Shown here: piece by piece, positions 23,651-48,947 of the stretch
How positions within the stretch are numbered: position 1 is the stretch's first letter
How the letters are laid out: every line of letters starts with the position of its first letter
From: Mycolicibacterium mucogenicum DSM 44124
GTDB lineage: Bacteria; Actinomycetota; Actinomycetes; Mycobacteriales; Mycobacteriaceae
Length of the DNA: 64,000 nucleotides
Reading direction: 5' to 3'
Assembly: GCF_005670685.2 (NCBI RefSeq)
Contig: NZ_CP062008.1
Coordinates: forward strand, 3,782,001 to 3,846,000
Notes under the pieces: model-generated
Told to the model about the DNA's origin: nothing
Database searches by the model: none
The model's input: only the letters and a program-made list of their open reading frames with translations
Made by a program: the position numbers and the translations under genes

Positions 23651-24496
23651 TCACTGGATCGGCTCGTCCCCCAGAACGGTCGTCCGCAGCATCTCCCGCG
23701 GCGAATCCGGGTCGTAGGGGGCGGCACGGTGCAGCACCCCGCGGTTGTCCCAGATGACGGTGTCCCCCACCGACCACGTGTGGCTGTACACCTTGTCTGC
23801 GGCAGTGGCCCGCTCCAGCAGTTCGGCGAGCAGCGCGCGTCCCTCGTCCGGCTCCATGCCGACGATGTAGTCCGCCGACGCACCAAGAACGAGTGACTTG
23901 CGTCCGGAACGGTGCGTCCAGACCAGCGGATGCTCGTGCGTCCGCCGCGACCGCCACACGGCGAGCTGTTCAGGCGACGGATCGGGTGTGACGCGGCGTT
24001 GCGATGCCTCGAGCGAATGCACCACCCGCAGCTGCCCGTACCGCTCCCGTTCGTCGTCGGTCAGTCCGTCATATGCGCCATAGGAATTCGCAAACTCGGT
24101 CTCGCCGCCGGACGCCGCCACCGCGACTGCCGAAAGCACGGTCGCCTGCTGCGGGCAGGTGTCCTCGATGGGTGTGCAGCCGTCGATGTGCCAATCGAAC
24201 GTCGCCCGCAGATACGCCGCCGAGGCGTTCTTGGACGTGTCGAGCGTGATCGGGTAGATGCCCGCAACGGAATGGTGTCCGTCCGACGAGTGATCGACAT
24301 GCCCGAGCCGGCGGCAGAACGCGACCTGCTGCTGCGGCTCGAGCCACAGTCCCGGGAAGACCAGTACGCCGTTGTCCTCCAAGGCATCCAGCACTGCCGC
24401 GGCGAGCGCATCGTCGGCGGCCAGCCGTTCGGCATCGATGCCGGACACTTCGGCCCCGACCGATGACGTGAGCTTGTTGATGGTCAGGACACTCAC
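23651..24496 (-). CDS. TauD/TfdA-family 2-oxoglutarate dioxygenase
   Basis: A 281-residue Fe(II)/2-oxoglutarate-dependent dioxygenase. Iron ligands visible: H103 and D105 in DWHIDG and distal H256 in NRGVLHRA; the oxoglutarate-binding Arg is in REMLRTT (267-271). GTG at 24496 overlaps the preceding small gene by 4 bp. It ends the reductase-SDR-Rieske-small protein operon. The family hydroxylates or cleaves diverse substrates (taurine, aryloxyacids, alkyl sulfates); which one here is unknown. Confidence 0.9.
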   Translation of the reverse strand: MSVLTINKLTSSVGAEVSGIDAERLAADDALAAAVLDALEDNGVLVFPGLWLEPQQQVAFCRRLGHVDHSSDGHHSVAGIYPITLDTSKNASAAYLRATFDWHIDGCTPIEDTCPQQATVLSAVAVAASGGETEFANSYGAYDGLTDDERERYGQLRVVHSLEASQRRVTPDPSPEQLAVWRSRRTHEHPLVWTHRSGRKSLVLGASADYIVGMEPDEGRALLAELLERATAADKVYSHTWSVGDTVIWDNRGVLHRAAPYDPDSPREMLRTTVLGDEPIQ

Positions 24497-24834
24497 GGCA
24501 CCGGCGCCCCGATGCGATTCATGACGGCATCGGCGGAGTCGGCGGGCTTCTGGGTGCCGAAGATCTCGACGGCCATCGACACCATGATCATCGAGTAGAT
24601 GAGGTGCAGCAGGTTGAGCGCGTCATCCGGCAGGTCGTCGAGGCCGAACTTGTCGCAGTAGTCGATGGCCTCTTCGAAGCGTGGCGTGAACGCGTCGTAG
24701 AACTCCCGAATCTCGGTCATCGGCGTGTTCAGGCGCATTTCCCAGCGTTCGGGTTCGGTTGCCAGGCACCACTTCTCGGCGAACGGCTCGAACTCGGCGA
24801 AGGCGCTCGGCAGCTTGGTTTCCGCCACGATCAC
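24493..24834 (-). CDS. small Rieske-associated protein (unknown family), copy 1
   Basis: A 113-residue acidic, helical protein not recognised as a known domain. It is homologous to 29739-30074 and 48609-48947; shared elements include LATEPER-type TExxR, an FYD segment, YCDKFGLDDLPDD and LHLIYSMIMVS. All three copies directly follow a Rieske oxygenase alpha subunit; here GTG overlaps the oxygenase stop by 4 bp. A structural or electron-transfer partner of the oxygenase, replacing the missing beta subunit, is the simplest inference. It lacks Fe-S cysteine motifs. Confidence 0.8.
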   Translation of the reverse strand: MIVAETKLPSAFAEFEPFAEKWCLATEPERWEMRLNTPMTEIREFYDAFTPRFEEAIDYCDKFGLDDLPDDALNLLHLIYSMIMVSMAVEIFGTQKPADSADAVMNRIGAPVP

Positions 24835-26090
24835 ACCCCCACCGGGGCCCGCTGGGCCTTGTACTGCTCGACCCAGTCGACCGAAACCTTGTGCAGATGC
24901 CGGACCAGGATCTCCTGATCGGACAGCGGGTAGTCGTCGACGACGTCGTACTCCAGCGCCGCCTGGGTGCCGCCGAGCATGCCGGCGTCTTGGAGCGCAA
25001 ACTCTTTGAGCACCACCGAGGCGACTTCGTGCTCGATGCGCTCGCGCACCGTGCGTGCCGGATGAAAGGCGTTGTACGCCTCGAACTTATGGGTGTTGTG
25101 CGACGTCGGCCAGTAGCGGTACAGCAGATACCAGCCGTGGTAGATCAGGATTTCCAGGTTGGGGAAGATCTGGAAGTTCGTGATGCCCCACGGTTCGATA
25201 CCACCCGGGTTGAGGCCCGCCGAGAAATGGGTCTCCGGGGTACGCCACGGGCCGACCAGGCCACTGCGGGTGATCCGCTCGACGGGGTACATGTAGTCGG
25301 GATCGAGCTTCCAGCGGCGGGTACCGGCGGTCGACACCAGGCGGTGCGGCCCGTCGATCTGGAAGTGCCCGCACTCGAAGGAGGCGTTGGGTTGACGCAC
25401 CGCGCTCGGCACCTGCTGGGAGTGCAGCGACGGTACGTGGTAGTACTCCTGGAACGCGTCGGCGAAGATCTTCCAGTTGCTGTTGTTCTCCGCGGCGAAG
25501 TCGTACCGCTCGGTCATCGCCCCGAACGGGTAGTCGTCGAGTGCGGTGATCATCGGGCCGAGGAACTCCCGCAGGCTCCACTGCGGCTCGGGATCGAAGT
25601 TGATGAAGATGAAGCCGTTCCACACATCGCAGTGCACGGGCTTGAGGCCATATCGCGAGCTGTCGAGCCCGAAGAACTCGCCCTCCTGCTGCACGAACGT
25701 CAGGTCGCCCTTGAGGTCGTAGCGCCAGCCGTGGTACTTGCAGGTGAACTGCCGGCACCCGCCCTTGGTCTCCTCGTTCGGAAAGTCGTTCCACACCAGC
25801 TTGTTTCCGCGGTGGCGGCAGATGTTGTAGAAGGCGCGGATCTGTTCGTCCTTGCCCTTCACCACGATCACCGAGGTCCTGGCAGCGTCGATCTCCTTGG
25901 TGACGTAGCTGCCGACCCGGGGCACCTCCTCGATCCGTCCGACATTGAGCCACGCGCGTTTGAAGACCGCTTCGCGCTCGAGTTCGTAGAACTCCGGCGA
26001 GATCGAATCGCGGAACGAAATCGGCCCGGTGCCGAGTTCGGGATAGTGCTCGGTCCAGCTGCCTTCCGCGGGCTTGGGCCACTTAGCCAT
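24831..26090 (-). CDS. Rieske non-heme iron oxygenase, alpha subunit, copy 1
   Basis: A 419-residue oxygenase. Rieske ligands: C91/H93 in CRHRG and C117/H120 in CKYHGW. Mononuclear iron site: H218 and H223 in DAFQEYYHVPSLH, with an Asp probably in FALQDAG near the C-terminus. It starts MAKWPKPAEGSWTEHYP, shared with the other two alpha subunits. ATG at 26090 follows GGAGGAG. No beta subunit is present; electrons likely come from the 2Fe-2S reductase two genes upstream. It hydroxylates or dealkylates an unidentified substrate. Confidence 0.93.
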   Translation of the reverse strand: MAKWPKPAEGSWTEHYPELGTGPISFRDSISPEFYELEREAVFKRAWLNVGRIEEVPRVGSYVTKEIDAARTSVIVVKGKDEQIRAFYNICRHRGNKLVWNDFPNEETKGGCRQFTCKYHGWRYDLKGDLTFVQQEGEFFGLDSSRYGLKPVHCDVWNGFIFINFDPEPQWSLREFLGPMITALDDYPFGAMTERYDFAAENNSNWKIFADAFQEYYHVPSLHSQQVPSAVRQPNASFECGHFQIDGPHRLVSTAGTRRWKLDPDYMYPVERITRSGLVGPWRTPETHFSAGLNPGGIEPWGITNFQIFPNLEILIYHGWYLLYRYWPTSHNTHKFEAYNAFHPARTVRERIEHEVASVVLKEFALQDAGMLGGTQAALEYDVVDDYPLSDQEILVRHLHKVSVDWVEQYKAQRAPVGV

Positions 26091-26129
26091 GAACTCCTCC
26101 TCGAAGTTGTTCGGTCACATCGTTTCCCG

Positions 26130-26873
26130 TCACATCACGGCCCCGCCGTTGACACCGAGGGTCTGCCCGGTGATGAAGCCGGCCTCCGACGAGCACAGGA
26201 ACCCGACGGCCGCTGCGATGTCGTCGCCGGTGCCGAGGTGGCCAACCGGGATACTGGCCGCCATCTGCTCGTTGGGCGGTAGATTGCCCGCCGCCTGCGA
26301 CTGGTGCTGCATGGGCGTCTCGATGCCCGACGGCGGTACGTTGTTCACCGTGATCCCCGCCGGACCATATTCGCGGGCAAGTGATTTCGTCAGCGAGAGC
26401 AACGCGCCTTTGGACGCGGCGTAATGCGCCATCCCCGGCGACCCGCGCTGCGCGCTGGACGACGAGATCATCACGATGCGACCCCACCCGGCCGCGAGCA
26501 TGTCGGGTATCGCGACCTGACAGCAGTGGAACGTACCGGTCAGATTGACGTCGATCAGCCGCTGCCACGAATCCAGGCTGATGTCGGTGAAAGCCGCGAA
26601 GTCCACCACGCCGGCACTGGTGACCAGGATGTGCACGGGCCCGAACTCGCTGCGCACCTTGGCGAAGGCGTCTTCCACAGAGACGCGGTCGCTGACGTCG
26701 GCGGCGATCCCGACTGCCTCCACCCCGTCGGCGCGCAGATTTTCCGCAACCCGCTGTGCCGCTTCCCCGTTGAGGTCGAGGACGGCGACCTTGTGCCCCC
26801 GCCGCCCCAATTCATGGCAGGTCGCTTCCCCCATACCCGACGCACCGCCGGTCACCACAGCCACGCGTGTCAT
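26130..26873 (-). CDS. short-chain dehydrogenase/reductase
   Basis: A 247-residue SDR: VVTGGASGMGEA, TSAG, MISSSS and YAASK catalytic pair, ending FITGQTLGVNGG. ATG at 26873; the longer frame upstream overlaps the reductase gene and is not used. It lies between the reductase (8 bp) and the Rieske oxygenase (39 bp), so it may dehydrogenate the oxygenase product. Similar to 2911-3612, including the CHCCQ/FHCIQ region. Confidence 0.9.
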   Translation of the reverse strand: MTRVAVVTGGASGMGEATCHELGRRGHKVAVLDLNGEAAQRVAENLRADGVEAVGIAADVSDRVSVEDAFAKVRSEFGPVHILVTSAGVVDFAAFTDISLDSWQRLIDVNLTGTFHCCQVAIPDMLAAGWGRIVMISSSSAQRGSPGMAHYAASKGALLSLTKSLAREYGPAGITVNNVPPSGIETPMQHQSQAAGNLPPNEQMAASIPVGHLGTGDDIAAAVGFLCSSEAGFITGQTLGVNGGAVM

Positions 26874-26881
26874 GCGCACTC

Positions 26882-27898
26882 CTACTCGTAAACCACTCGA
26901 ACGGTCCTGCTGGTCGGCAGGGACTGGCAGGTCAGCACCCAGCCGTCGGCGACCTCGTCGTCGTCGAGGGCATCGTTGTTGAGCATGTGCGCACTGCCTT
27001 CGACGATGCGCGCCATACACGTTCCGCAGGAACCGGTTTCGCACGACGACGGCGCCCGCAGACCCGCGATGCGGGCCGTCTGCAGCAGCGTGTTGCCCGC
27101 CCGGTATTCCACCGTCGTCTTGCGGCGGTCGAGTTCGATGGTGACTTCCTCGGTTACCGACGCAGCCGTCTCCTCGGCCGATACCGTCGCAACCTCGAAG
27201 CGCTCCAGGTGAATCCGGCTCCGTGGCGTCCCGGTCTGCATGACCGCGGATTCCACTGCGTCCATGAACGGTCCGGGTCCGCAGATGTAGTACTCCGCGT
27301 CGCCCGCCTCGGCAATGAAGGACGCGATGGCCTCCGGTTGCACGATGCCGTCGACATCGTCGAAGTGGTGCCGCACTGTCAGCCGGTCGGGATGGGACTC
27401 TGCCAGTGCGGCAAGGGAATCGGCGAAGATCACCGAGTCGCTGCTGCGATTGGCATAGAACAACCGGATGCGGCGCGCGGTTCCTGCCAGCGCGGCCCCG
27501 ATGAGAGAGTGGATCGGCGTGATCCCGCTGCCACCGGCGAAGGCGACGAGGTCACGCTCCCCGTCGCCCAGCACGAAGCGTCCTTCCGGCGGCGCGGCTT
27601 CGATGTGACCGCCGACCTCAGCGCTGTCGTTCAGCCAGTTTGAGACCAGCCCGCTGCCGTCACGTTTGATCGTGATCTGCAGGTCGTCGCCGTTATGGGG
27701 CGACGACGACATCGAGTAGCACCGGCGGTGCTGATCGCCGCCCAGCTGCACCCGCAGGGTCAGGAATTGCCCTGCCTGGTAACGGAATCGGGGCGCGCAG
27801 TCCTCGGGGATGTCGAGAACCAGCGACACGGCGTCGCCGGTTTCCCGCACCACCCGCTTGATGCGTAGTGACGCGAAGTCGTCCACAAGATCGGCCAT
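26882..27898 (-). CDS. KshB-like oxygenase reductase (FAD, NAD(P)H, plant-type 2Fe-2S)
   Basis: A 338-residue three-domain reductase: FAD-binding RRCYSMSSSP (58-67), NAD(P)-binding AGGSGITP (121-128) and YYICGPGPFMD, and a C-terminal plant-type ferredoxin with C286, C291, C294 and C324. This order is that of KshB/HmpX-type reductases that drive two-component Rieske oxygenases. First gene of the 23651-27898 operon, with palindromic operators within 50 bp of its start. It is the only such reductase in the window, so it may serve all three Rieske oxygenases. Confidence 0.93.
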   Translation of the reverse strand: MADLVDDFASLRIKRVVRETGDAVSLVLDIPEDCAPRFRYQAGQFLTLRVQLGGDQHRRCYSMSSSPHNGDDLQITIKRDGSGLVSNWLNDSAEVGGHIEAAPPEGRFVLGDGERDLVAFAGGSGITPIHSLIGAALAGTARRIRLFYANRSSDSVIFADSLAALAESHPDRLTVRHHFDDVDGIVQPEAIASFIAEAGDAEYYICGPGPFMDAVESAVMQTGTPRSRIHLERFEVATVSAEETAASVTEEVTIELDRRKTTVEYRAGNTLLQTARIAGLRAPSSCETGSCGTCMARIVEGSAHMLNNDALDDDEVADGWVLTCQSLPTSRTVRVVYE

Positions 27899-27909
27899 CC
27901 CCTCGACAG

Positions 27910-27947
27910 TATCAAGTACTTGTCATTGATATCAAGTGATTGATATT
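27910..27947. promoter_or_regulatory. tandem TCAAGTACTTGA-type operators
   Basis: Two adjacent palindromes: ATCAAGTACTTGTCAT (27911-27926) and ATATCAAGTGATTGATAT (27929-27946). They lie 13-48 bp upstream of the reductase start. The reverse complement of the first is nearly identical to the site at 31393, pointing to one regulator for both Rieske operons. Confidence 0.7.
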
Positions 27948-28030
27948 GACTTGTTGACTCTGCACTTACGGCGTACCCCACTCGCACTTTTACGCCCTGC
28001 GTACAGGGTCAACGGCAGGGCCGGGGACCG

Positions 28031-28483
28031 TCAGTCGCCGACGTGATCGTCGATCAACTTGTGTCCGGTGCCCTGCTCGACGACGCGTGTGAGCAGCCGC
28101 TTGAGGGTCTCCTGCTCCTCGGCGGTGAGCACACCGAACACCGCTTCGTGCGCCTCGACTGCGTCGCTGACGACCGCGGCAGCGGTCTTGCGTCCCTGCT
28201 CGGTCAGGAAGGCCTGGAGGATGCGGGCATGCTGCGGATCCGGCTTGCGTTGCACCAGCCCGCGATCCTCGAGCGCCTTGAGCGCCAACTGCACACCCTG
28301 CGGGGTGATGAGCAGCCGGCGCGCCAGGTCGGCGCCGGACAGTCCCGGCTCATTGGCGAGTTGGCGCAGCACACCGATCTGCGCGGTACTGACGCCGTGA
28401 CTACTGACGGCTTCGTTCACTGATGTCAGTGAGAAGTAGAACGCCTGCTTGAGATGCCAGAGGAGGTTCTCGTCCAGGTCCAC
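28031..28483 (-). CDS. MarR-family transcriptional regulator
   Basis: A 150-residue winged-helix regulator: GVSTAQIGVLRQLANEPGLS, recognition helix LLITPQGVQLALKALEDRG and the wing with LVQRKPDPQHAR. MarR proteins usually repress catabolic genes and release on binding an aromatic or acidic ligand. GTG at 28483 overlaps the amidohydrolase stop by one base, so it is the last gene of the Rieske operon it probably controls. Candidate binder of the TCAAGTACTTGA-type sites at 27.9, 31.4 and 36.9 kb. Confidence 0.9.
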   Translation of the reverse strand: MDLDENLLWHLKQAFYFSLTSVNEAVSSHGVSTAQIGVLRQLANEPGLSGADLARRLLITPQGVQLALKALEDRGLVQRKPDPQHARILQAFLTEQGRKTAAAVVSDAVEAHEAVFGVLTAEEQETLKRLLTRVVEQGTGHKLIDDHVGD

Positions 28484-29742
28484 TACGCACCTCCATCGAC
28501 CTGCTTGTAGATCTGCCCCGCTTTCATCACGAAGCGCACGTCCAGCGTACTGGCGATATCGCTGGATACGTCCCCGGGCACGGCCACGATGTCCGCAAGG
28601 TAGCCGGGGGCGAGGCGCCCGAGTTCGTCGTCGGCGTCGATGAGTTCGGCGCTCGTGACGGTCGCGGCCCGGATGGCCTGCATCGGCGTCATGCCGCGCG
28701 AGACGAGCGCGCAGAGCTCTTTCGCGTTCTGCCCGTGCGGCACTGCCGGCGCATCGGTTCCGCAGGCGATGCGCACTCCGGCCGCGATGGCCTTGGGCAA
28801 CATCGCCTGTGCCTGCGGAAACACGACCTCGGCTTTCTTGCGCAGCTCGGGCGCGATGCGGTCGATCGCCATCGCCTCGGTGAGGTAGGTCGTCGACACC
28901 AGGAATGTGCCCGTGTCGGCCATCAGCTTGATGGTGTCGTCGCTCGCCAGGAAGCCGTGTTCGATGCAGTCGATGCCGGCGCGAATGCAGGCCCGAATAG
29001 CGCTGTCCCCCACCGCGTGTGCGGCCACCCGCACGCCGGCGCGGTGCGCCTCGTCGGCGATCGCGGCGAACTCGTCGTCGGAATACTGCTGGGCACCCGG
29101 AGCCGTGCTGTGCGACATCACGCCACCGGAAGCCGACACCTTGATCAGCTTGGCGCCGTGCCGGACCTGATAGCGCACGCAGGCGCGGACCTCGTCGACG
29201 CCGTTGGCGATGCCCTCCCCGACGGACAGCGGCATGATGCCCGGCGCCAGGCGCTGGAACACCGTCGGATCGAGGTGACCTCCGTACGGCGTCACGGCGT
29301 GCCCGGCCGGGTAGATCCGGGGCCCGACGTGCCAGCCCTGCTCGATCGCCCGCATGAGAGCGACGTCCAGCAGGTAGCCGCCGGTCTTGACCATCAGCCC
29401 GAGGTTGCGCACGGTGGTGAACCCGGCGTCCAGCGTGGTGCGGGCGTTGACGGCGCCGCGCAGTGTCCGATACGCCGGATCGTCCTGCACGCCGTGCATC
29501 GGACTGGGCAGCCCTTCCGGCCCACCGGGTCCACCGATGAGCAGGTTGAGCTCCATGTCCATCAAGCCGGGCAGTAGCGTCACATCGCCGAGATCGATGA
29601 CGGTGGCCGAATCCGGCACGGGTTCAACCGGATTGACGGCCTTGATGCGGTCGCCCTCGACCACGACGACGGCAGGCGACCGAACTTCGCCGGTGTTTAC
29701 ATCGGCCCAGCGGGCGGCCCGCAGGACAGTGAGTGCCGTCAT
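28483..29742 (-). CDS. amidohydrolase-1 family protein with altered metal site, copy 1
   Basis: A 419-residue imidazolonepropionase/prolidase-like amidohydrolase. The expected PGxxDxHxH motif reads PGLMDMELN, replacing both histidines with Glu and Asn. The remaining site is intact: Lys in GAKLIKV (usually carboxylated), His in VAAHAVG, His in DCIEHGF, Asp in CGTDAPA. ATG at 29742 overlaps the small Rieske-associated gene (ATGA); the open frame upstream is not used. It is a paralogue of 48951-50162 in the same gene order. Probably hydrolytic with one metal, but the reaction is not predictable. Confidence 0.87.
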   Translation of the reverse strand: MTALTVLRAARWADVNTGEVRSPAVVVVEGDRIKAVNPVEPVPDSATVIDLGDVTLLPGLMDMELNLLIGGPGGPEGLPSPMHGVQDDPAYRTLRGAVNARTTLDAGFTTVRNLGLMVKTGGYLLDVALMRAIEQGWHVGPRIYPAGHAVTPYGGHLDPTVFQRLAPGIMPLSVGEGIANGVDEVRACVRYQVRHGAKLIKVSASGGVMSHSTAPGAQQYSDDEFAAIADEAHRAGVRVAAHAVGDSAIRACIRAGIDCIEHGFLASDDTIKLMADTGTFLVSTTYLTEAMAIDRIAPELRKKAEVVFPQAQAMLPKAIAAGVRIACGTDAPAVPHGQNAKELCALVSRGMTPMQAIRAATVTSAELIDADDELGRLAPGYLADIVAVPGDVSSDIASTLDVRFVMKAGQIYKQVDGGA

Positions 29743-30074
29743 GGCACCGGTTCGTAAACACAGTCGAGCTTTGTGGCGCCGGAGTCGGGAACCCGCGGCT
29801 GCTTCCAGCACTCGATGGGGAACGACACCATGATCATGGAGTACAGCAGGTGCATGAGGTTCAGGACATCCTCAGGCATGTCGTCGAGGCTGAACTTGTC
29901 GCAGAACGCGATAGCGTCCTCTGCCCGCGGCGTGATCGCGTCGTAGAACGCCTGCATCTGGGCCATCGAACTGTCGAGCCGCTTGGCATACCGCTGGGCT
30001 TCCGTCGGCAGGCACCACTCGGAAAACGGCTCCAGGTCGGCGAATTCGGCCGGCAATGTCACGGTCATGATCAC
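29739..30074 (-). CDS. small Rieske-associated protein (unknown family), copy 2
   Basis: A 111-residue protein, homologous to 24493-24834 and 48609-48947 (LPAEFADLEPFS, YAKRLDSSMAQMQ, DDMPEDVLNLMHLLYSMIMVS). GTG at 30074 overlaps the Rieske stop by 4 bp and the end overlaps the amidohydrolase start by 4 bp, so the three gene products are made in step. Closer to copy 3 (both share SFP-E-WKQPRV near the end) than to copy 1, as expected if the whole module was duplicated. Confidence 0.8.
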   Translation of the reverse strand: MIMTVTLPAEFADLEPFSEWCLPTEAQRYAKRLDSSMAQMQAFYDAITPRAEDAIAFCDKFSLDDMPEDVLNLMHLLYSMIMVSFPIECWKQPRVPDSGATKLDCVYEPVP

Positions 30075-31336
30075 ACCTCCGCCGTCTTGCGCTGGTAGTC
30101 CTCGATCCAGGCGGCGGTCTCGTGGTGCAGGTGGCGGATCAGCACCTCCTGGTCACACAGCAGGAATTCGTTGACGGTGCGGGACTCGATCATCGACTGC
30201 GTGGCCTCCAATGTGTTGGCGTCCTGCAGGCCGTACTCCTTGAACGTCACCGCCGCGAGCTCCTGTCCGATGCGCTCGCGCGGACTGCGCGCCGGCGGGA
30301 AATACAGCGTGCATTCGAAGGTGTGGGTGTTGTACGACGTCGGCCAGTAGTGGTAGGTGAGGTACCAGCCCTGCCCCCAGAACAGCACGACGAAGTTGGG
30401 GAACAACTGGAACGAATCCAGGCCCCACGGATCGCATTTCGCCGGATTCAGGCCGACGGGCATCTCCCCCAGGTCGGGTGAATCCCACGGCCCGAACAGT
30501 CCGCTCTGGCAGATGTCCTCCATGGGCTTGCGCATCTCGGCGCCCATCTCCCACACCCGCACCCCGGAAGTGCTGACGAGCCGGTGCGGTCCGTCGATGC
30601 GGTAGTGCGGCGCCTCGAAACCGGCCTGCGCCGCGGCCTTCGAATAGTTGGTCGGCGACTGGTTCGCATGCAGCACGGGCGCGTGGTAGAACTCCTGGAA
30701 CGCGTCCATGTACAGCTTCCAATTCGCTTTGACCTCAGAGCGATACGTGAACTTCGAGGTCAGCTTCTCGAACGGATAGCCCTCCAGCCCCAGGATCATC
30801 GGGCCGAGGAAGTCGCGCAGCGACTGCTCGGGCTCGAGTGCGAAGTTGACGAAGATGAACCCCTCCCAGACGTCGCAGTGCACGGGCACCAGGCCGTACC
30901 GCTCCTTGTCGAGGTCGAAGAACTCACCCTCCTGCTGCACGAACGTCAGGTTGCCGTCGAGGTCGTAACGCCAGGCGTGGTACTTGCAGGTGAACTGCTT
31001 GCAGAAGCCCTTCGTCTCCTCCAGCGGCATGTCGTTCCACACCAGCTTGTTGCCCCGGTGCCGGCAGATGTTGTGAAACGCCTTCACCTCGCCGGCATTG
31101 TTGCGCACCACGATGATCGAGGTGCCGACCACCTTGAGCTCTTTGGTGAAGTAGCTGCCCTTGCGCGGAAGTTGTTCGACGCGACCGACATTCAGCCACG
31201 CCCGCTTGAACACCGCCTTGCGTTCAATCTCGAACTGCTCGGGACTGATCGAGTCCTCGTACGACACCGGGTCGGTGCCCAGCCGCGGATAGTGTTCGGT
31301 CCAACTGCCCTCGGGCGGCTTGGGAAACCGAGCCAT
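30071..31336 (-). CDS. Rieske non-heme iron oxygenase, alpha subunit, copy 2
   Basis: A 421-residue oxygenase with C91/H93 and C117/H120 for the Rieske cluster and H218/H223 in DAFQEFYHAPVLH for the mononuclear iron; LQDANTLEATQ near the C-terminus probably supplies the Asp. ATG at 31336 follows GAGGAG. First gene of the Rieske-small protein-amidohydrolase-MarR operon. No reductase or ferredoxin is in this operon, so it likely shares the one at 26882. The closest relative in the window is copy 3. Confidence 0.93.
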   Translation of the reverse strand: MARFPKPPEGSWTEHYPRLGTDPVSYEDSISPEQFEIERKAVFKRAWLNVGRVEQLPRKGSYFTKELKVVGTSIIVVRNNAGEVKAFHNICRHRGNKLVWNDMPLEETKGFCKQFTCKYHAWRYDLDGNLTFVQQEGEFFDLDKERYGLVPVHCDVWEGFIFVNFALEPEQSLRDFLGPMILGLEGYPFEKLTSKFTYRSEVKANWKLYMDAFQEFYHAPVLHANQSPTNYSKAAAQAGFEAPHYRIDGPHRLVSTSGVRVWEMGAEMRKPMEDICQSGLFGPWDSPDLGEMPVGLNPAKCDPWGLDSFQLFPNFVVLFWGQGWYLTYHYWPTSYNTHTFECTLYFPPARSPRERIGQELAAVTFKEYGLQDANTLEATQSMIESRTVNEFLLCDQEVLIRHLHHETAAWIEDYQRKTAEV

Positions 31337-31392
31337 GACGCACTCCTCATCGACGTGCCTACACAGGCGACGGTATCCGTCGCGCGCGCCAA

Positions 31393-31410
31393 TGACAAGT
31401 AGTTGATATT
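31393..31410. promoter_or_regulatory. TCAAGTACTTGA-type operator
   Basis: ATGACAAGTAGTTGATAT, 57 bp upstream of the Rieske start. It differs from the reverse complement of the 27911-27926 site at two of 18 positions. Confidence 0.7.
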
Positions 31411-31427
31411 CATGTCGCCGGGGTTCT

Positions 31428-32030
31428 TCAGGCGAACTTGATCGCCGAGACGTACATGTCGACGACCGGCCGGAACAGGTCGACGCCGTCGAGCTCATTG
31501 CTCAAGACGATGGCATCGCTGGTGGCCAGCAGAATCTGCGCGAACGTCGACGCGGGTATCAGCAGCGTCCCGCCCAGCCGGTCGACGCCCTCGACGATGA
31601 AACCCGCCAATGCCTCGACGACCTCGGATCGCCTGGCCGCCACACGGTCTCGCACTTCAGGGTTGCGCAGCAGATAGAGCGTGAACTCGTAACCCAGCGC
31701 AGCGTGTTCGGCGCCGCGGCCACGACTCAGCTCGAGCCAGCGCTCGGCGATCTCATCCCGCTCATGCGCCCCGACGCGCTCCGACCGCGACATCACTTCG
31801 GTGAATTTGTCGAAGTACTGGCGCCAGTAGCGGTCATTGACCGCGAGGAACAGGTCTTCCTTGGTGGCGAAATGCTTGTAGATGGCGCCCTTGGTGTAGC
31901 CGGCGACGGATGCGATCTCGTCGAGAGTCGCTGGCGTGAAGCCCTTTTCAGCGAAGACATCCTCAGCTGCATCCAGCAGCAGCGAACGCGTGTGTTCCAG
32001 TCGCCGCTCCCGCGTCCAACGCTCCACCAT
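31428..32030 (-). CDS. TetR-family regulator
   Basis: A 200-residue TetR regulator with N-terminal HTH (VFAEKGFTPATLDEIASVAGYTKGAIYKHF, residues about 26-55) and a variable ligand-binding half. ATG at 32030 is chosen; the longer upstream frame crosses the intergenic palindrome. Divergent from the AveC-like operon with an AGATACC palindrome between them, so it most likely controls that operon and itself. Confidence 0.9.
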   Translation of the reverse strand: MVERWTRERRLEHTRSLLLDAAEDVFAEKGFTPATLDEIASVAGYTKGAIYKHFATKEDLFLAVNDRYWRQYFDKFTEVMSRSERVGAHERDEIAERWLELSRGRGAEHAALGYEFTLYLLRNPEVRDRVAARRSEVVEALAGFIVEGVDRLGGTLLIPASTFAQILLATSDAIVLSNELDGVDLFRPVVDMYVSAIKFA

Positions 32031-40127: not shown

Positions 40128-40145
40128 GCCCACTCCCTTCGACCG

Positions 40146-41372: not shown

Positions 41373-42160
41373 CAGGACTCCAATCTGGGCACGGCCCATC
41401 GGCCGGTGAACGTCGGTTCGTGTTTCGCGGCAAAGGCCGCATATGCCGTCGCAGCATCAGTGGTGGCGAAATTGACCACCTGCGCGCGGGATTCGTTGGC
41501 CAGCGCTTCCCGCATCGTGGCGTCGGCGCCCTGGTTCAACAACGCTTTGGCCTGGCCGAGCGCGACCGGCGGGCCCGCCGCCAACCGTGCCGCGAGGTCA
41601 TCGACGAATCCGTCGATCTCCGGCCCGGACACCACCCACGTCACCAGATTGAGCGCCTGAGCTTCGTCGGCGTCGATGGTCTCGGCCAGCAGCGCAAGCC
41701 TTTTCGCCTGTTGCAGCCCGACGATCTTGGGTAGCAGCCACGAGCCGCCGAGATCCAGTGACAGGCCGCGCTTCGAAAAGATCTGAGAGAAGCGCGATTC
41801 CGGGGTCGCGACAACGAAGTCGCAGCCGAGTGCCAGGTTCCACCCCGCGCCGACGGCGACGCCCGTCACCTTGGCGATGGTGGGCAACGACAGCTCGTGC
41901 AGCGCGACCGCGACATCGGTGAGCTTCTGCAGTTTGCGCAGCGGATGGATGTCCTCGGGCTCGGAGATGTCCGCCCCTGAGCAGAAGGCTCCCCCGGCAC
42001 CGGCGAGTACCAGCGCCCGCAGCCCGGGATCGCGGTCCGCGGCATGTAACTCCTCGGCCAAGCGCACCCACAGTTCCGGGTTGATGGCGTTCTTGCGTTC
42101 CGGACGGTTCAGCGTCAGCGTGCGGACACCGTCACGGTCTTCGCGCAGCAGCACACTCAT
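41372..42160 (-). CDS. enoyl-CoA hydratase/isomerase family
   Basis: A 262-residue crotonase: CoA-binding AFCSGADIS, oxyanion GVAVGAGWNLALGCD, and SKRGLSLDLGGSWLLP, where one classical glutamate position is Asp, as in PaaG-like isomerases. It hydrates or isomerises an enoyl-CoA made by the dehydrogenases in the same operon. Overlaps the CoA-transferase by 4 bp. Confidence 0.92.
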   Translation of the reverse strand: MSVLLREDRDGVRTLTLNRPERKNAINPELWVRLAEELHAADRDPGLRALVLAGAGGAFCSGADISEPEDIHPLRKLQKLTDVAVALHELSLPTIAKVTGVAVGAGWNLALGCDFVVATPESRFSQIFSKRGLSLDLGGSWLLPKIVGLQQAKRLALLAETIDADEAQALNLVTWVVSGPEIDGFVDDLAARLAAGPPVALGQAKALLNQGADATMREALANESRAQVVNFATTDAATAYAAFAAKHEPTFTGRWAVPRLES

Positions 42161-43344
42161 CCGACGACGCCACTTCGGTGCAGCCCGGCGATCTCCTCGC
42201 CGGTGTAGCCGAGTTCCGCCAGGATGGCATCGGTGTGCTGCCCGAGACCGGGCACCGCGCCCATCGGAAACTCGAAGCCGTCGATGATGGGCGGCGGCAG
42301 AATGGCATCGATCGGGCCCGCGGGTGTGTCGACCCGGCGCCAGCGGTCACGTTCCGACAGTTGCGGGTGCACCAGCACCTCGCTGGGCAGGTTGTAGCGG
42401 GAGTTGCCGATGCCGGCGTCGTCGGCGACCTTCTGGATGTCGGTTAGATCGTTGGCGGCGCACCATGATCCGATCGCTTCGTTCAGCACATCGCGGTGTT
42501 CACATCGGCCGGAGTTGGTGGCGAACCTCGTGTCGTCGGCGAGATCGGGGCGCGCGATGATGTCGCGCGCCAGGCGCTGCCATTCGCGGTCGTTGGTGGT
42601 GCCCAGCACCACGGTCTGGCCGTCGGCCGTGCCGAAGGCCCCGTACGGCGACACCGCGGGCGAGCTCATACCCAGGGGCTGCTGGTCGATGCCGGAATGC
42701 TGGGTATAGGTCAGCGGATACCCCATCAGCTCGGCCATGGTGTCGAACAGGCTCACGTTCACGGTCGCGCCGCGGCGCGACCGCCCGTCCCGCGAGAACA
42801 GCAGGGCCAGAATCGAAAGCGCCGAGTACAGCCCTGACGAGATGTCCGCGACGGGCGGGCCGGGCTTGGCCGGTGCTCCGGGCTGTCCGGTGATCGCGCA
42901 GGTCCCCGATTCGGCTTGCACCAGCAGGTCATAGGCTCGCTTGTGGGACAGCGGCCCGCCGGACCCATAGCCGTCGATCTCGACGGCGATCACGTCGGGA
43001 TGCGACTGCGCGAGGGCGGCGGGTGAAATACCCAGTCGGGCCGTCGCTCCCGGCGCCAGGTTCGACACCAGGACGTCGGCGCGGTCCAAGAGCCGGTGCA
43101 GCACGGCCAGGCCGTCATCCGTCTTCAGATCGAGCGTCACCGATTCCTTGCCGCGATTCGCCCAGACGAAGTGCGCCGCTTGACCATTGACGACGTCGTC
43201 GTAGTCGCGGGCGAAATCCCCGCCGTTCGGGTTCTCCACCTTGATCACCCGGGCACCGAAGTCGGCAAGCGTACGGGTGCACATCGGCGCCGACACGGCC
43301 TGTTCGAGGGCGATCACCGTCACGCCCGAAAGTGGTGCGCTCAC
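42157..43344 (-). CDS. class III CoA-transferase (CaiB/BaiF family)
   Basis: A 395-residue CoA-transferase: start GVTVIALEQAVSAPMCTRTL, ANRGKESVTLDLK, and catalytic Asp in RAYDLLVQAESG, typical of the formyl-CoA transferase group. In an operon with two dehydrogenases and a hydratase it probably activates a carboxylic intermediate with CoA taken from another thioester. It differs clearly from the 1459-2664 enzyme. GTGA-type overlaps with both neighbours. Confidence 0.92.
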   Translation of the reverse strand: MSAPLSGVTVIALEQAVSAPMCTRTLADFGARVIKVENPNGGDFARDYDDVVNGQAAHFVWANRGKESVTLDLKTDDGLAVLHRLLDRADVLVSNLAPGATARLGISPAALAQSHPDVIAVEIDGYGSGGPLSHKRAYDLLVQAESGTCAITGQPGAPAKPGPPVADISSGLYSALSILALLFSRDGRSRRGATVNVSLFDTMAELMGYPLTYTQHSGIDQQPLGMSSPAVSPYGAFGTADGQTVVLGTTNDREWQRLARDIIARPDLADDTRFATNSGRCEHRDVLNEAIGSWCAANDLTDIQKVADDAGIGNSRYNLPSEVLVHPQLSERDRWRRVDTPAGPIDAILPPPIIDGFEFPMGAVPGLGQHTDAILAELGYTGEEIAGLHRSGVVG

Positions 43345-44099
43345 ATGACCATTCCGCCGTCCACCGGCAGCACCTGGCCGGTGATGTACGACGCGGCATC
43401 CGAGGCCATGAAGACGAACGCACCGGCGACCTCGTCGGGATCGGCCCAGCGCTTCATCGGGATGCGGTTCATCATGTTCGCCGCGAACTTCTCGTTGGTG
43501 CGGATGGTCTCGGTCATCGGCGTGGCTGCCAGCGGGGCCAGCGCGTTGACCGTGATGCTCTTCGTCGCCAGTTCGCGCGCAAGCGATTTGGTGAAACCGA
43601 TGATGCCGGCCTTGGCCGCCGAATAGTTGACCTGGCCGAGGGTCCCGGTCAGCCCGGCCGCCGACGTGACGTTGACGATGCGCCCGGTACCGTCCGCCGG
43701 CAGGTAGGGCAGCGCGGCCTGCGTGACGTTGAACGCGCCCATCACGTGGATGTCGAACAGCAACCGGAACGCGTCCTGCGTCGTCTTCTCGAACATCGCG
43801 GGCTTGGTGACGCCCGCGTTGTTGATCAGGATGTGCAGCTTTCCATCACCCAGTGCCGCCGCCTGCGCGGCGGCGGCATCCGCCGAGCCACGGTCCGCCA
43901 CGTCGAGTGCGGCGGACTCGGCGCGCCCACCGGCTTCCGAAATACGTTCCGCCACAGCCGCTGCCGCGTCTTTGTCCAGATCGGTGACCAGCACGGCGGC
44001 ACCCGCGGCGGCCAAGGCGCCGGCCACCGCCGTGCCGATTCCCCCGGCAGCACCGGTGACCAGCGCCGAGCGGCCGGTCAGGTCGAAATACGTCCGCAT
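43341..44099 (-). CDS. short-chain dehydrogenase (3-oxoacyl reductase/FabG-like)
   Basis: A 252-residue SDR: ALVTGAAGGIGTAVA, NNAG, NVTSAAG and YSAAK catalytic pair, ending YITGQVLPVDGGM. ATG at 44099 with a GGAG about 9 bp before; GTG at 44108 is possible. In this operon it fits the 3-hydroxyacyl-CoA dehydrogenase step after hydration. Confidence 0.92.
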   Translation of the reverse strand: MRTYFDLTGRSALVTGAAGGIGTAVAGALAAAGAAVLVTDLDKDAAAAVAERISEAGGRAESAALDVADRGSADAAAAQAAALGDGKLHILINNAGVTKPAMFEKTTQDAFRLLFDIHVMGAFNVTQAALPYLPADGTGRIVNVTSAAGLTGTLGQVNYSAAKAGIIGFTKSLARELATKSITVNALAPLAATPMTETIRTNEKFAANMMNRIPMKRWADPDEVAGAFVFMASDAASYITGQVLPVDGGMVM

Positions 44100-44114
44100 C
44101 AGTAACACTCCGTC

Positions 44115-45296
44115 TCAATAACTGCGGGGAAGGCCGAGCACGTGTTCGCCCAGGAAGTTCAGGATCATCTCCTGGCTCACCGGCGCGATCTTCATCAGGC
44201 GCGACTCTCGGAAGTACCGCGACACGTGATACTCCTCGGAATAGCCCATACCGCCGTGCAACTGCAGGGCCCTGTCGGCCGCCGCGAATCCCGCGTCGGC
44301 ACAGAGATATTTCGCGGTATTGGCCTCGCGCCCACAGGGTTTGCCGTTGTCGTAGAGCCACGTCGCCTTGCGCAGGATCAGCTCGGCCGCGTCGAGCCGG
44401 GCCAGCGAATCGGCCAGCGGGAACTGCAGGCCCTGATTCATGCCGATGGGGCGGTTGAACACGGTGCGCTCGTTGCCGTATTTGACGGCCTTTTCCAGCG
44501 CGACCCGCCCGATGCCCAAAGCCTCAGCAGCGATGAGCATCCGCTCCGGGTTGAGCCCGTCGAGGATGTACTTGAATCCTTGGCCTTCCTCACCGACCCG
44601 ATGGGCCTCGGGCACCATGAGGTCGTCGATGAAGACCTCGTTGGAGCTGACGGCGTTGCGGCCCATCTTGCGGATCGGCCGGATGTCCACGTGGTTACGG
44701 TCGAGGTCGGTCAGGAACAGCGTCATGCCGTCGGTCTTCTTGGTGACCTGGTCGTACGGCGTGGTCCGGGTCAGCAGCAGGATCTTCTCCGACTCGATGG
44801 CTTTGGAGATCCACACTTTTCGGCCGTTGATGCGGTACTTGTCGCCTTCGCGCTTCGCGAACGTCGTGATGCGTGAGGTGTCCAGCCCGGCACCGGGTTC
44901 GGTGACACCGAAGCAGACGTGCAGGTCGCCGTTGACGATGCGCGGCAGCGTCTCTTGCTTCATCTCGTCCGAGCCGTGCTTGACGACCGGTTGCATGCCA
45001 AAGATCGACAGGTGAATGGCGCTGGCGCCGTTCATCGCCGCCCCGGACCGGGCCACCTCCTCGAGCAACAGCGTCGCCTCGGTGATGCCCAGACCGTGGC
45101 CGCCGTACTCCTCCGGGATGGTCATACCGAGCCAGCCGCCCTTGGCGATGGCGTCGTAGAACTCCTGGGGGAATTCGTGCGCCTGGTCCTTCTCCATCCA
45201 GTAGTGGTCGTCGAACTTGGCCGCCAACTCCGCCACCGATGACCTGATGAGCTCCTGATCCTCGGACAGCGCGAAGTTCATGCCGGACGGGGTCAA
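44115..45296 (-). CDS. acyl-CoA dehydrogenase
   Basis: A 393-residue acyl-CoA dehydrogenase: FGVTEPGAGLDTSRI, RKVWISKAIESEK, ERTVFNRPIGMNQGLQFPLAD and QLHGGMGYSEEYHVSRYFRESR, ending HVLGLPRSY. TTG at 45296 overlaps the amidohydrolase stop (TTGA); ATG at 45281 is an alternative. Full length, so probably homomeric, and distinct from the 40224 enzyme; the two likely handle different chain stages. Confidence 0.92.
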   Translation of the reverse strand: MTPSGMNFALSEDQELIRSSVAELAAKFDDHYWMEKDQAHEFPQEFYDAIAKGGWLGMTIPEEYGGHGLGITEATLLLEEVARSGAAMNGASAIHLSIFGMQPVVKHGSDEMKQETLPRIVNGDLHVCFGVTEPGAGLDTSRITTFAKREGDKYRINGRKVWISKAIESEKILLLTRTTPYDQVTKKTDGMTLFLTDLDRNHVDIRPIRKMGRNAVSSNEVFIDDLMVPEAHRVGEEGQGFKYILDGLNPERMLIAAEALGIGRVALEKAVKYGNERTVFNRPIGMNQGLQFPLADSLARLDAAELILRKATWLYDNGKPCGREANTAKYLCADAGFAAADRALQLHGGMGYSEEYHVSRYFRESRLMKIAPVSQEMILNFLGEHVLGLPRSY

Positions 45297-46570
45297 CTGT
45301 TGGCCTCCGCGGCAGCGTGCAGCGCTTCACCCCGAGCGCCCTGGGCGTGATGGCTCAGTGCCTGGATCGACACGTCGTGTCCCTCGGCCGCCTTGCGCAG
45401 CGCGCCCACCGTGGCCTGCTCGCGTGAAATGTGCTGGAACGGATCGAAGTTGTACCAGCGCATCGCGTTCTCGTGGGTGATCTTGTCGATCTCGTCGTCG
45501 GGAACACTGTTGGCGGACAACACATCCCACAGTTCTTCCGGCGCACCCGGCCACATCGAGTCGCTGTGCGGGTAGTCGGCTTCCCAACAGATGTTGTCGA
45601 TCCCGATGTTGTTACGCAGCGCGACGCCCACCGGGTCACTGATGAAGCAGGTCAAGAAGTGCTCACGGAACACGTCACTGGGTACCTTGCCCTTGAAGTC
45701 CTGCTTGGTCCACGTCGAGTGCATCTCGTAGGTGCGGTCCGCGCGCTCGAGGAAGTATGGAATCCACCCGGTACCACCCTCGGACAGCGCGATCTTGAGG
45801 TCCGGGTACTCCTTGATGGGCCGCGACCACAGCAGGTCCGCGGCGGCCTGCACGATGTTCATGGGCTGCAGGGTGATCATGACGTCCATCGGGGCGTCCG
45901 GCGCGGTGACGACCAGCTTGCCCGACGAGCCGATGTGGACGTTCATCACGGTTCCGGTGTCGCACAGCGCTTCCCACAGCGGATTCCAGTACGGGTCGTG
46001 GAAGCTGGGATATCCCATGGCAGCCGGATTCTCGGTGAACGTCAGCGCGTGGACGCCCTTCTTGGCCACGCGCCGCACCTCCTGCGCGCACTTCTCGGCG
46101 CTCCAGATCACCGGGATGGCCATCGGGATGAAGCGGGCCGGGTAGGCGCCACACCACTCATCGATGTGCCAGTCGTTGTAGGCCTGAACCAGCGCCAGCG
46201 AGAAATCCTCGTCCTCGGTCGCGAACAACCGGCCGGCGAACCCGGGAAACGACGGGAAGCAGATGGAGCCCAGGATGCCGCCGGCATTCATGTCCTTGAC
46301 GCGTTCGTCGACGTTGTAGCAGCCCGGCCGGATCTCGTCGAGCCCCTGCGGCTCGAGTCCGTACTCCTCTTTGGGCCTGCCGGCGACCGCGTTGAGCGCG
46401 ACGTTCGGAATGACGACGTCGCGGAACTTCCACATGTCGCTGCCATCGGCGTTGTGCACCAGGTGGGGCGCCTCATCGAGGTACTTCGCAGGCAGGTGGT
46501 TCTTGAACATGTCCGGCGGCTCGACCAAGTGGTCGTCCACGCTGATCAGGATCATGTCTTCCTTCTTCAT
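45293..46570 (-). CDS. amidohydrolase-2 family enzyme
   Basis: A 425-residue amidohydrolase-2 protein: N-terminal ISVDDHLVEPPDMF (metal region with one His), CFPSFPGFAGR, VMNVHIGSSG and WEADYPHSDSMWPGAPE. This DDH type is widespread in mycobacterial lipid and steroid clusters without a defined reaction. It leads the minus-strand beta-oxidation-like operon 46570-40224 and is divergent from the gene at 46775 across a region with two GAGAAT-type sites. Confidence 0.88.
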   Translation of the reverse strand: MKKEDMILISVDDHLVEPPDMFKNHLPAKYLDEAPHLVHNADGSDMWKFRDVVIPNVALNAVAGRPKEEYGLEPQGLDEIRPGCYNVDERVKDMNAGGILGSICFPSFPGFAGRLFATEDEDFSLALVQAYNDWHIDEWCGAYPARFIPMAIPVIWSAEKCAQEVRRVAKKGVHALTFTENPAAMGYPSFHDPYWNPLWEALCDTGTVMNVHIGSSGKLVVTAPDAPMDVMITLQPMNIVQAAADLLWSRPIKEYPDLKIALSEGGTGWIPYFLERADRTYEMHSTWTKQDFKGKVPSDVFREHFLTCFISDPVGVALRNNIGIDNICWEADYPHSDSMWPGAPEELWDVLSANSVPDDEIDKITHENAMRWYNFDPFQHISREQATVGALRKAAEGHDVSIQALSHHAQGARGEALHAAAEANS

Positions 46571-46604
46571 TACCAGCCTTCCTCCCGCTTAGTTCTCTAC
46601 AAAT

Positions 46605-46631
46605 GAAAACTAGCTTCTCGCTAAACGAGAA
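46605..46631. promoter_or_regulatory. degenerate GAGAAT-type palindrome pair
   Basis: GAAAAC-TAG-CTTCTC (46605-46619) is a weaker version of the common palindrome. It overlaps TTCTCG-N5-CGAGAA (46615-46631). Both lie 35-61 bp upstream of the amidohydrolase start at 46570. Confidence 0.45.
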
Positions 46632-46735
46632 TCAACGTCTACGGCCGCAAATACCCGCCGACCAGGCAACACGCCAGCCAAAATTCGGCGCGGCGTTGAC
46701 CACGGCGACGAAACATGCAAATGTATTAGTCAGAA

Positions 46736-46754
46736 ATGAGAATCCCATTCTCAT
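46736..46754. promoter_or_regulatory. GAGAAT-N3-ATTCTC palindrome, extended
   Basis: ATGAGAAT-CCC-ATTCTCAT, a perfect 8-3-8 palindrome, 20 bp before the likely ATG at 46775. Confidence 0.75.
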
Positions 46755-46774
46755 CGACGAGAGGACCTGGCCTG

Positions 46775-47304
46775 ATGCGCCTCCCCCGCTTCCCGCAGAC
46801 CGCTGGGACGACGAGGTCGACAAAGCGTTGGCAGGCCTCGTATCGGACGAGCAGCGCGATCCTGAAAAGGTGAGCAATCTGATCGGCACGCTCGCCCGCC
46901 ACCCGAAGCTCGCCAGGCCCTACCTCCGGTACAGCTTCTATCTGCTGTACTCCTCGACACTGCCGGACCGGGTCCGCGAACTCGCCATTCTGCGCGTCGC
47001 GCACCAGACCGGCAGTGAGTACGAATGGGCCCAGCACGTCAATCTCGGCCGGCAGGTCGGACTGACCGACGACGAGATCGACGCGGTCACCCGCGGCGAG
47101 GCCGGCGACGACTTCGAGCGAGCGGTGCTGATCGCGGCCGACGAACTGCTCGAGAAATACAACCTTTCCGATGCCACTTGGTCAGCGCTGAGCGAGCGGC
47201 TCGAAGAGCGTCAGCTCATGGATTTGATGTTCACCATCGGGTCATATGCGGCACTGGCTATGGCTTTCAACACATTTGGCGTAGAGCTGGACAAGGAGAC
47301 GTAA
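46775..47304 (+). CDS. carboxymuconolactone decarboxylase-like protein, probable frameshift at the start
   Basis: About 176 residues of the CMD/AhpD-like fold: RPYLRYSFYLLYSSTLPDRV, AILRVAHQTGSEYEWAQHV and GLTDDEIDAV; it lacks the AhpD CxxC. The main frame has no good start: the first ATG (46603) would place the palindrome inside the gene. ATG at 46775, after GAGAGGA, reads MRLP and then leaves the frame at the CCCCC run 46783-46787; one more C would give MRLPPLPADRWDD, as expected for the family. So a 1-base deletion, real or a sequence error, is suspected. It precedes Rieske copy 3 by 4 bp. Confidence 0.72.
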
Positions 47305-47308
47305 ACAT

Positions 47309-48616
47309 ATGGCCCACTTCCCCAAACCCGCTGCAGGCAGCTGGACCGAGAACTGGCCCGAACTGGGCACAGCACCGGTCGACTACACCGACTCCATCGA
47401 CCCGGAGCAGTGGAAGCTGGAGCAGCAGGCCATCTTCCGCAAGACCTGGCTGCACGTCGGCCGCGTCGAGCGGCTGCCCAAGGTAGGTAGTTACTTCACC
47501 CGGGAGATGCCCTCGGTCGGCGCCGGCACCTCGATCATCATCGTCAAAGACAAAGACGAGACCGTCCGCGCGTTCTACAACATGTGCCGGCACCGCGGAA
47601 ACAAGCTGGTGTGGAACGACTATCCCGGCGAAGAGGTCTCGGGCTCGTGCCGCCAGTTCACCTGCAAGTACCACGCCTGGCGTTACGCGCTCAACGGCGA
47701 CCTGACGTTCATCCAGCAGGAACAGGAGTTCTTCGACGTCGACAAGGCCGACTATCCGCTCAAGCCCGTGCGCTGCGAGGTGTGGGAGGGGTTCATCTTC
47801 GTCAACTTCGATGACGACGCCGCGCCGCTGAAGGAATACCTCGGCGATTTCGCAAAAGGCCTGGAGGGCTATCCCTTCCACGAGATGACCGAGGTCTACA
47901 GCTACCGCTCCGACATCAAGGCGAACTGGAAGCTGTTCATCGACGCGTTCGTCGAGTTCTACCACGCACCGATCCTGCACATGAAGCAGGCGACCAAGGA
48001 AGAGGCCGACAAGCTCGCCAAGGTCGGCTTCGAGGCACTGCACTACGACATCAAGGGCGACCATTCGATGATTTCGTCCTGGGGCGGCATGAGCCCGCCC
48101 AAGGACCTCAATATGGTCAAGCCGATCGAACGGATTCTGCACAGCGGCCTGTTCGGTCCGTGGGACCGGCCCGACATCAAGGGCATTCTGCCCGATGAAC
48201 TGCCACCGGCCGTCAACCCCGCCCGGCAGAAGACCTGGGGCCAGGACTCTTTCGAGTTCTTCCCCAATTTCACTCTGCTGCTGTGGGTTCCGGGTTGGTA
48301 CCTCACCTACAACTACTGGCCGACGGGCGTGGACAGCCACATCTTCGAGGCGAACCTCTACTTCGTCCCGCCGAAGAACACGCGGCAACGACTGTCGCAG
48401 GAACTGGCCGCGGTGACGTTCAAGGAGTACGCCCTGCAGGACGCCAATACCCTGGAGGCCACCCAGACGCAGATCGGCACGCGGGCGGTCACCGAATTCC
48501 CGTTGTGCGATCAGGAGATTCTGCTGCGCCACCTGCATCACACGGCGCACAAGTATGTCGACGAATACAAGTCCGAGCAGTCGGTGAAGACCAACGGGAG
48601 AGTTGCGCATGTCTGA
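47309..48616 (+). CDS. Rieske non-heme iron oxygenase, alpha subunit, copy 3
   Basis: A 435-residue oxygenase: Rieske ligands C93/H95 and C119/H122, mononuclear iron H219/H224 in DAFVEFYHAPILH, and LQDANTLEATQ near the end. ATG at 47309 lies 4 bp after the CMD-like gene. It shares start, domain plan and the following two genes with copy 2, so the Rieske-small protein-amidohydrolase module was duplicated. No reductase is in this operon. Confidence 0.93.
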   Translation: MAHFPKPAAGSWTENWPELGTAPVDYTDSIDPEQWKLEQQAIFRKTWLHVGRVERLPKVGSYFTREMPSVGAGTSIIIVKDKDETVRAFYNMCRHRGNKLVWNDYPGEEVSGSCRQFTCKYHAWRYALNGDLTFIQQEQEFFDVDKADYPLKPVRCEVWEGFIFVNFDDDAAPLKEYLGDFAKGLEGYPFHEMTEVYSYRSDIKANWKLFIDAFVEFYHAPILHMKQATKEEADKLAKVGFEALHYDIKGDHSMISSWGGMSPPKDLNMVKPIERILHSGLFGPWDRPDIKGILPDELPPAVNPARQKTWGQDSFEFFPNFTLLLWVPGWYLTYNYWPTGVDSHIFEANLYFVPPKNTRQRLSQELAAVTFKEYALQDANTLEATQTQIGTRAVTEFPLCDQEILLRHLHHTAHKYVDEYKSEQSVKTNGRVAHV

Positions 48617-48947
48617 GACCCCTTTGCTTCCAGCCGAATTTGCCGATCTCGAGCGATTCTCCGACTGGATTCTCGCGACCGAACCCGAGCGCTACGCCAA
48701 GCGGCTGGCGTCCAGCATGGCCGAGATGCAGGACCTCTACGACGTCGGCATGGCGCGGCTCGAAGAGGTCATGGTCTACCTCGATGCCCGATTCCCGTTG
48801 CACGACATGCCGGATGACGCCAAGCGGTTGATGCATCTGATGCAATCGGTCGTCATGGTGTCATTCCCGGTCGAGGTGTGGAAGCAACCGCGTGTCCTCG
48901 ACAGCGGGGCCGCGTGGGTCGAACTGGTGCGAGAGCCGGTGGTCTAG
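48609..48947 (+). CDS. small Rieske-associated protein (unknown family), copy 3
   Basis: A 112-residue homologue of 24493-24834 and 29739-30074 (LPAEFADLERFSDW, YAKRLASSMAEMQDLYD, HDMPDDAKRLMHLMQSVVMVSFP). ATG at 48609 with GGGAGAG before it; it overlaps the oxygenase end by 8 bp. Mostly helical and acidic, without cysteine motifs. Conservation of position in all three modules argues for a direct role in oxygenase assembly or activity. Confidence 0.8.
   Translation: MSETPLLPAEFADLERFSDWILATEPERYAKRLASSMAEMQDLYDVGMARLEEVMVYLDARFPLHDMPDDAKRLMHLMQSVVMVSFPVEVWKQPRVLDSGAAWVELVREPVV

Follow-up and report, generated by a model that had tools for sequence, protein, structure and literature searches.

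What is the small protein that is encoded directly behind each Rieske oxygenase alpha subunit in one part of the Mycolicibacterium mucogenicum DSM 44124 chromosome, and is it tied to the oxygenase by function or only by position? The stretch analyzed here, referred to below as the window, comprises 64,000 nucleotides of contig NZ_CP062008.1 (positions 3,782,001 to 3,846,000). It carries three Rieske alpha genes, each followed by a gene for a protein of about 110 residues. Our conclusion is that the small protein probably serves one clade of Rieske alphas without a nearby beta gene as their obligate and stoichiometric partner subunit. The basis for this is the homology of the small proteins, their two-way 1:1 occurrence with the alphas, the gene overlaps in the window, the retention of both genes where they have become unlinked (two genomes), and the presence of the small protein beside alphas that have lost the Rieske site.

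The small proteins and their partner alphas

The three small genes lie at 24493..24834 (minus strand, 113 residues; copy 1), 29739..30074 (minus strand, 111 residues; copy 2) and 48609..48947 (plus strand, 112 residues counted from its ATG; copy 3), and their products are 43-60 % identical in pairwise comparison. Copies 1 and 2 overlap the stop of the upstream alpha gene by 4 nt (GTGA) and copy 3 does so by 8 nt, an earlier note on this DNA having reported that each overlaps or abuts that stop; copy 1 also shares 4 nt with the next gene, which encodes a TauD-type protein. Overlapping genes of this kind fit translational coupling of the alpha and the small protein. The sequence motifs listed in the same note are present in the copies, except that copy 1 reads WEMRL instead of YAKRL.

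The partner alphas are encoded at 24831..26090 (minus strand) for copy 1, 30071..31336 (minus strand) for copy 2, and 47309..48616 (plus strand) for copy 3. The second of these open reading frames (ORFs) opens at 31498, and its start at 31336 was placed by comparison with homologues. The three alphas are 49-58 % identical pairwise. All match PF00355 and PF00848 and carry both the Rieske ligands (C-x-H...C-x2-H) and the mononuclear iron ligands (D/H/H/D), as we take these to be assigned in the family, and are thus Rieske oxygenase alphas. No beta gene is near them, as the earlier note had noticed: the sole PF00866 match of the genome, at 825219, adjoins a different alpha and is about 3 Mb from the window.

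None of the small proteins matched a Pfam or NCBIfam model above the cut-off (Pfam gave chance matches at E 0.19 and 0.28, and NCBIfam none). Searches with two of them matched 4442 and 2897 database proteins, in partly overlapping sets, and the family is therefore not the product of a chance ORF. At least nine of 240 small-protein entries among the matches listed bear the UniRef name 'Xaa-Pro dipeptidase', and other names are 'hypothetical' and 'uncharacterized'. On a protein of about 110 residues with no peptidase match, the dipeptidase label is probably a wrong automatic name; our guess is that it was perhaps borrowed from the adjoining amidohydrolase.

The M. mucogenicum genome as a whole (a single contig of 6.10 Mb) holds three copies of the small gene, all in the window, and seven PF00848 alphas, four of which have no small protein. 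The claim that the small protein follows every Rieske alpha therefore applies within the window (3/3) and fails across the genome (3/7). To define the relationship, two sets of genomes were searched, a phylum draw of 396 and a family draw of 121 (eight positive genomes are common to both), using profile A1 for the small protein and profile A5 for the partner alphas. The alpha of copy 1 is a full match to A5, and that of copy 3 is the best A5 match in the M. mucogenicum genome.

In the phylum draw, 50 small-protein copies were found in 18 of the 396 genomes, and every one of them has a PF00848 alpha directly upstream on the same strand (the adjacency check took in all 50 small matches and 76 of 141 Rieske rows). 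The same 18 genomes contain 141 PF00848 matches, 91 of which are not partners of a small protein. Profile A5 returned the identical 18 genomes with 49 matches, which scored 461-800 bits against 192 bits for the next alpha, setting the clade apart as a discrete group. As scoring in this search was limited to the top four candidates of each genome, one genome (G303) shows four alphas and five small proteins. The family draw yielded 50 alphas and 50 small proteins in an identical set of 21 of 121 genomes, with the same count in each and all 50 pairs adjacent. Since the two profiles find identical sets of genomes, the companion is tied to one discrete alpha clade, and the tie holds in both directions.

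A further set of named loci, the best 80 of 486 confirmed relatives and thus a non-random sample, came from Acidimicrobiia, Frankiales, Streptomyces, Actinomadura, Amycolatopsis, Nocardia, Rhodococcus, Gordonia, Blastococcus, Mycobacterium and others, and also from single metagenome-assembled genomes labelled Proteobacteria and Terriglobia. An alpha lies directly upstream of the small gene in 77 of these 80 loci. The strict coupling proposed in the earlier note thus held both ways in the phylum, family and named-locus tests, including two genomes in which the genes are unlinked (see below), and homologues far from a Rieske gene are scarce (0/50, 0/50 and 3/80, respectively).

The gene following the small gene changes from locus to locus, whereas the alpha upstream stays constant. 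It encodes an amidohydrolase in 49 of the 80 named loci (counted by eye) and elsewhere a TauD, short-chain dehydrogenase or TetR protein. Genes for cytochrome P450, ferredoxin, acyl-CoA dehydrogenases, CoA transferases, enoyl-CoA hydratase and a thiolase/ChsH2-like protein surround the pairs, which looks like a setting for the breakdown of hydrophobic compounds. Around the 50 phylum-draw pairs (18 genomes), no PF00866 beta was nearer than about 34 kb, as compared by eye.

Predicted structure, Rieske-site loss and possible roles

The AlphaFold2 model of the small protein has four helices (residues 9-20, 25-34, 37-61 and 69-91) and no strand, with a mean predicted local distance difference test score (pLDDT) of 89. 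The C-terminal tail has no predicted structure (block means of pLDDT are 72, 68 and 57). Tail residues 92-101, with a pLDDT of about 70, are nevertheless the most conserved among the nine segments compared (3.49 bits vs 3.0-3.3 for the helices), and 6 of 102 ten-residue windows of the protein score above them. A tail that is conserved and, in the model, unstructured on its own would fit the usual picture of a docking motif. Searches of the PDB by sequence and by fold found no relative of the small protein (fold E <= 0.001), which does not exclude a fold relationship.

If the small protein is a partner subunit, its four-helix body might bind the alpha oligomer, while the conserved tail (WKQPRVPDSGA...EP) might dock onto the catalytic part of the alpha. 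The docked protein could then stabilize the oligomer or shape the active site, a role of the kind played by beta subunits or NdmE in other systems.

Alternatively, the small protein might act on the oxygenase substrate or product as an enzyme or carrier in its own right, perhaps an isomerase or a substrate shuttle, without belonging to the oxygenase. Its conserved polar helix residues (E25, R28, R32, Y44 and D45) and its location in degradation clusters, among other enzymes, would be in agreement with this. However, there is one copy per alpha and paralogues are kept separately; the most conserved segment is the tail without predicted structure, which resembles a binding motif; and no fold or family match to any enzyme was found, although this does not exclude one. 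We therefore consider a separate enzyme or carrier unlikely.

The fate of the Rieske site in the partner alphas bears on two other explanations. Ligands were scored in 161 distinct alpha-small pairs, which were gathered by adjacency and so do not sample alphas at large. All 161 have intact mononuclear iron ligands. The Rieske ligands are canonical (CHCH) in 153; four alphas have substituted ligands, three have lost the Rieske loop, and one (L134) could not be scored because its gene is broken up. The substituted alphas read CRCC in L128 (10038-11309) and L060 (6819-8030), CHCC in L215 and CHCR in L223. The loop was removed by internal deletion in the alphas of L085, L092 and L214, which come from Aldersonia sp. 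NBC_00410, Williamsia faeni and one further genome. The loop-deleted alphas matched PF00848 and not PF00355 (at E up to 1e-4 for L212, which is the L085 gene again; at E up to 1, with L077 as the positive control, for L214 and for L213, which is the L092 gene again). The ratio of nonsynonymous to synonymous substitution rates (dN/dS) is about 0.16 (0.074/0.476) for the closest two of them and 0.17 and 0.14 for the remaining comparisons, in which dS is saturated; judged from these sequences, the loop-deleted alphas look to be under purifying selection. All seven altered alphas (three deleted, four substituted) carry the small protein. In the family draw, the three loop-deleted alphas were recovered by the alpha profile alone, and each adjoins a small match.

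Three observations on individual loci may be added. At L134 (Mycobacterium talmoniae), the small gene is intact but the clade alpha ahead of it is broken up into several ORFs, due either to decay or to an assembly error. In-frame TGA codons in a small match (G343) and an alpha match (G470) were considered as signs of decay and rejected, as each is the gene's own terminal stop overrun by the match. Upstream of the loop-deleted alpha and its small partner at L212, with one short ORF between, are Mce-type lipid uptake genes (1640-5537), hinting at a hydrophobic substrate.

The small protein has been kept beside alphas without a Rieske site, which speaks against a function confined to the Rieske cluster. 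This weakens the notion that the small protein is an assembly factor for that cluster, as which a small protein with one gene per alpha, adjoining it, could be imagined. In addition, where a genome has several alphas, each of them has its own diverged copy, although one general factor could serve them all. An assembly factor thus appears quite improbable. Of the two roles offered by the earlier note, obligate partner or assembly factor, the partnership fits the two-way coupling, with physical contact a matter of inference, and Rieske-cluster assembly has lost ground.

The small protein might instead be an electron-transfer adaptor that docks a reductase or ferredoxin on the alpha. A gene for a flavin/NAD/plant-type 2Fe-2S reductase (26882..27898, minus strand; PF00970, PF00175 and PF00111) is indeed present between copies 1 and 2, and its position makes it the likely electron donor for the oxygenase; the ferredoxin site of alpha3-beta3 enzymes has been reported to lie at their alpha-beta boundary (PMC9361823). 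Yet the alphas lacking Rieske ligands have kept the small protein, and nearby electron-donor genes vary among loci, leaving the adaptor with little likelihood.

Separated genes and possible contact between the two proteins

Loci in which the two genes are no longer neighbors provide a way to distinguish a functional tie from a positional one. In three named loci (L104, L105 and L125), there is no alpha within 6 kb of the small gene; the genome-wide search of exceptions covered L104 and L125. In Actinomadura barringtoniae, clade alphas and small proteins number three each; two pairs are adjacent, while the remaining alpha and small gene are about 36 kb apart (G396 C34, 260246 and 296245). In Blastococcus sp. 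URHD0036, the single clade alpha and the single small gene are separated by about 9 kb and lie on opposite strands (G397 C14, 144135 and 154102). That both genes persist in equal numbers once separated is the best indication of a functional and not a positional tie, and with two genomes it is suggestive.

Several results weigh against the partner-subunit reading or fail to lend it support. In neither genome does the unlinked alpha stand out in the distance profile of the unlinked small protein: in Actinomadura, the value is 0.37 for the unlinked alpha and 0.38 for another alpha, and in Blastococcus it is 0.29. The pairs used for the ligand count, having been gathered by adjacency, would miss Rieske-less alphas without a small gene. 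Folding the alpha, an intergenic linker and the small protein as a single chain, with no alpha-alone control, gave a pLDDT of 87 and a predicted template modelling score (pTM) of 0.76; in this model of the complex, which the earlier note had suggested as a check, the helical body is confident, and the placement of the small protein relative to the alpha is not, so that the model speaks neither for nor against contact. Finally, in 91 triples that include the amidohydrolase as an operon mate, the mirror-tree correlation is 0.74 for alpha and small protein vs 0.90 for alpha and amidohydrolase, and the top mutual-information z is 6.4 vs 7.9, respectively.

Taken by themselves, the alpha-small signals had seemed strong, with a mirror-tree r of 0.79 over 121 pairs (at most 0.08 in 200 shuffles) and top coupled sites that group between alpha residues 225-231 and small-protein residues 84-98 (161 pairs). 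Because the amidohydrolase control scored as high or higher, both covariation and mirror-tree were rejected as evidence of contact. Linkage explains these signals, as it would if the small gene were simply a neighbor that is inherited in the operon and is functionally unrelated to the alpha, but the two-way presence and absence in 121 and 396 genomes, the equal copy numbers and the persistence of both genes after unlinking in two genomes make such a neighbor highly improbable.

The partner subunit thus remains the reading that we favor. In a more elaborate version, which is doubtful but can be entertained, the small protein would represent a third type of partner subunit, unrelated to beta or NdmE, with its tail inserted near the iron site, and it would let Rieske-less alphas function in mixed oligomers, where Rieske-bearing paralogues of the same cell would supply the electrons.

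Known Rieske systems, gene surroundings and implications

In alpha3-beta3 enzymes, the beta subunit (PF00866) is encoded directly after the alpha, with one per alpha, and is a protein of about 170-190 residues with an NTF2-like alpha+beta fold. The small protein resembles it in being a small partner encoded right after the alpha, one per alpha; it differs in being about 110 residues long and, in the model, all-helical. None of the three copies matched PF00866 at E up to 10, and they are not beta subunits by this test. NdmE, of the caffeine N7-demethylase NdmCDE, is likewise an accessory protein and not a beta, and loss of the Rieske site is seen in some clade alphas as well. However, NdmE is glutathione-S-transferase-like, whereas the small protein matches no Pfam family, that of the transferases included, and no PDB match at the fold threshold given above, which leaves such a fold not excluded; and, unlike in the NdmE system, most partner alphas keep their Rieske site (153/161).

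The nearest solved sequence to a clade alpha is that of the carnitine monooxygenase CntA (E 1.9e-35), and the folded chain matches CntA with a TM score of 0.79-0.82 by target length (chains listed) and terephthalate dioxygenase with 0.72-0.78. Like the two-component, alpha-only CntA/GbcA type (group V), the clade alphas combine Rieske and catalytic domains and lack a beta gene in the vicinity; a flavin/2Fe-2S reductase gene is close to the alpha in the window. Group V acts on quaternary ammonium compounds, yet the clade alphas have acyl-CoA, P450 and lipid-uptake genes as neighbors. A homotrimer (alpha3) has been described for CntA (PMC7948474), and the accessible text of that source mentions no companion protein, in contrast to the clade alphas, which have a small partner.

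As for the remaining genes in the window, copy 1 is followed by a TauD/TfdA-type 2-oxoglutarate dioxygenase (23651..24496; PF02668), a cytochrome P450 (22268..23602; PF00067) and a ferredoxin (22077..22271; PF13459 and PF13370), all on the minus strand. After copy 2, also on the minus strand, are an amidohydrolase (28483..29811; PF01979), the true start of which is probably internal, and a MarR-type regulator (28031..28483; PF12802). Another amidohydrolase follows copy 3 (48951..50162, plus strand; PF01979). Elsewhere, between 31704 and 36938, a tandem pair of AveC-like (spirocyclase-type) proteins is encoded, and then a CbbQ/NorQ-type AAA ATPase and a VWA-domain protein.

A search of the open-access literature, with most subscription papers outside its reach, found no paper on the small protein, and thousands of database proteins match its family. 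If it is indeed an obligate subunit, producing these oxygenases with just the alpha and a reductase might fail or mislead. The loop-deleted paralogues that carry the small protein make electron supply to a cluster-less alpha directly testable. An obligate subunit of this kind would also make a new way to build a Rieske oxygenase without a beta subunit accessible to testing.

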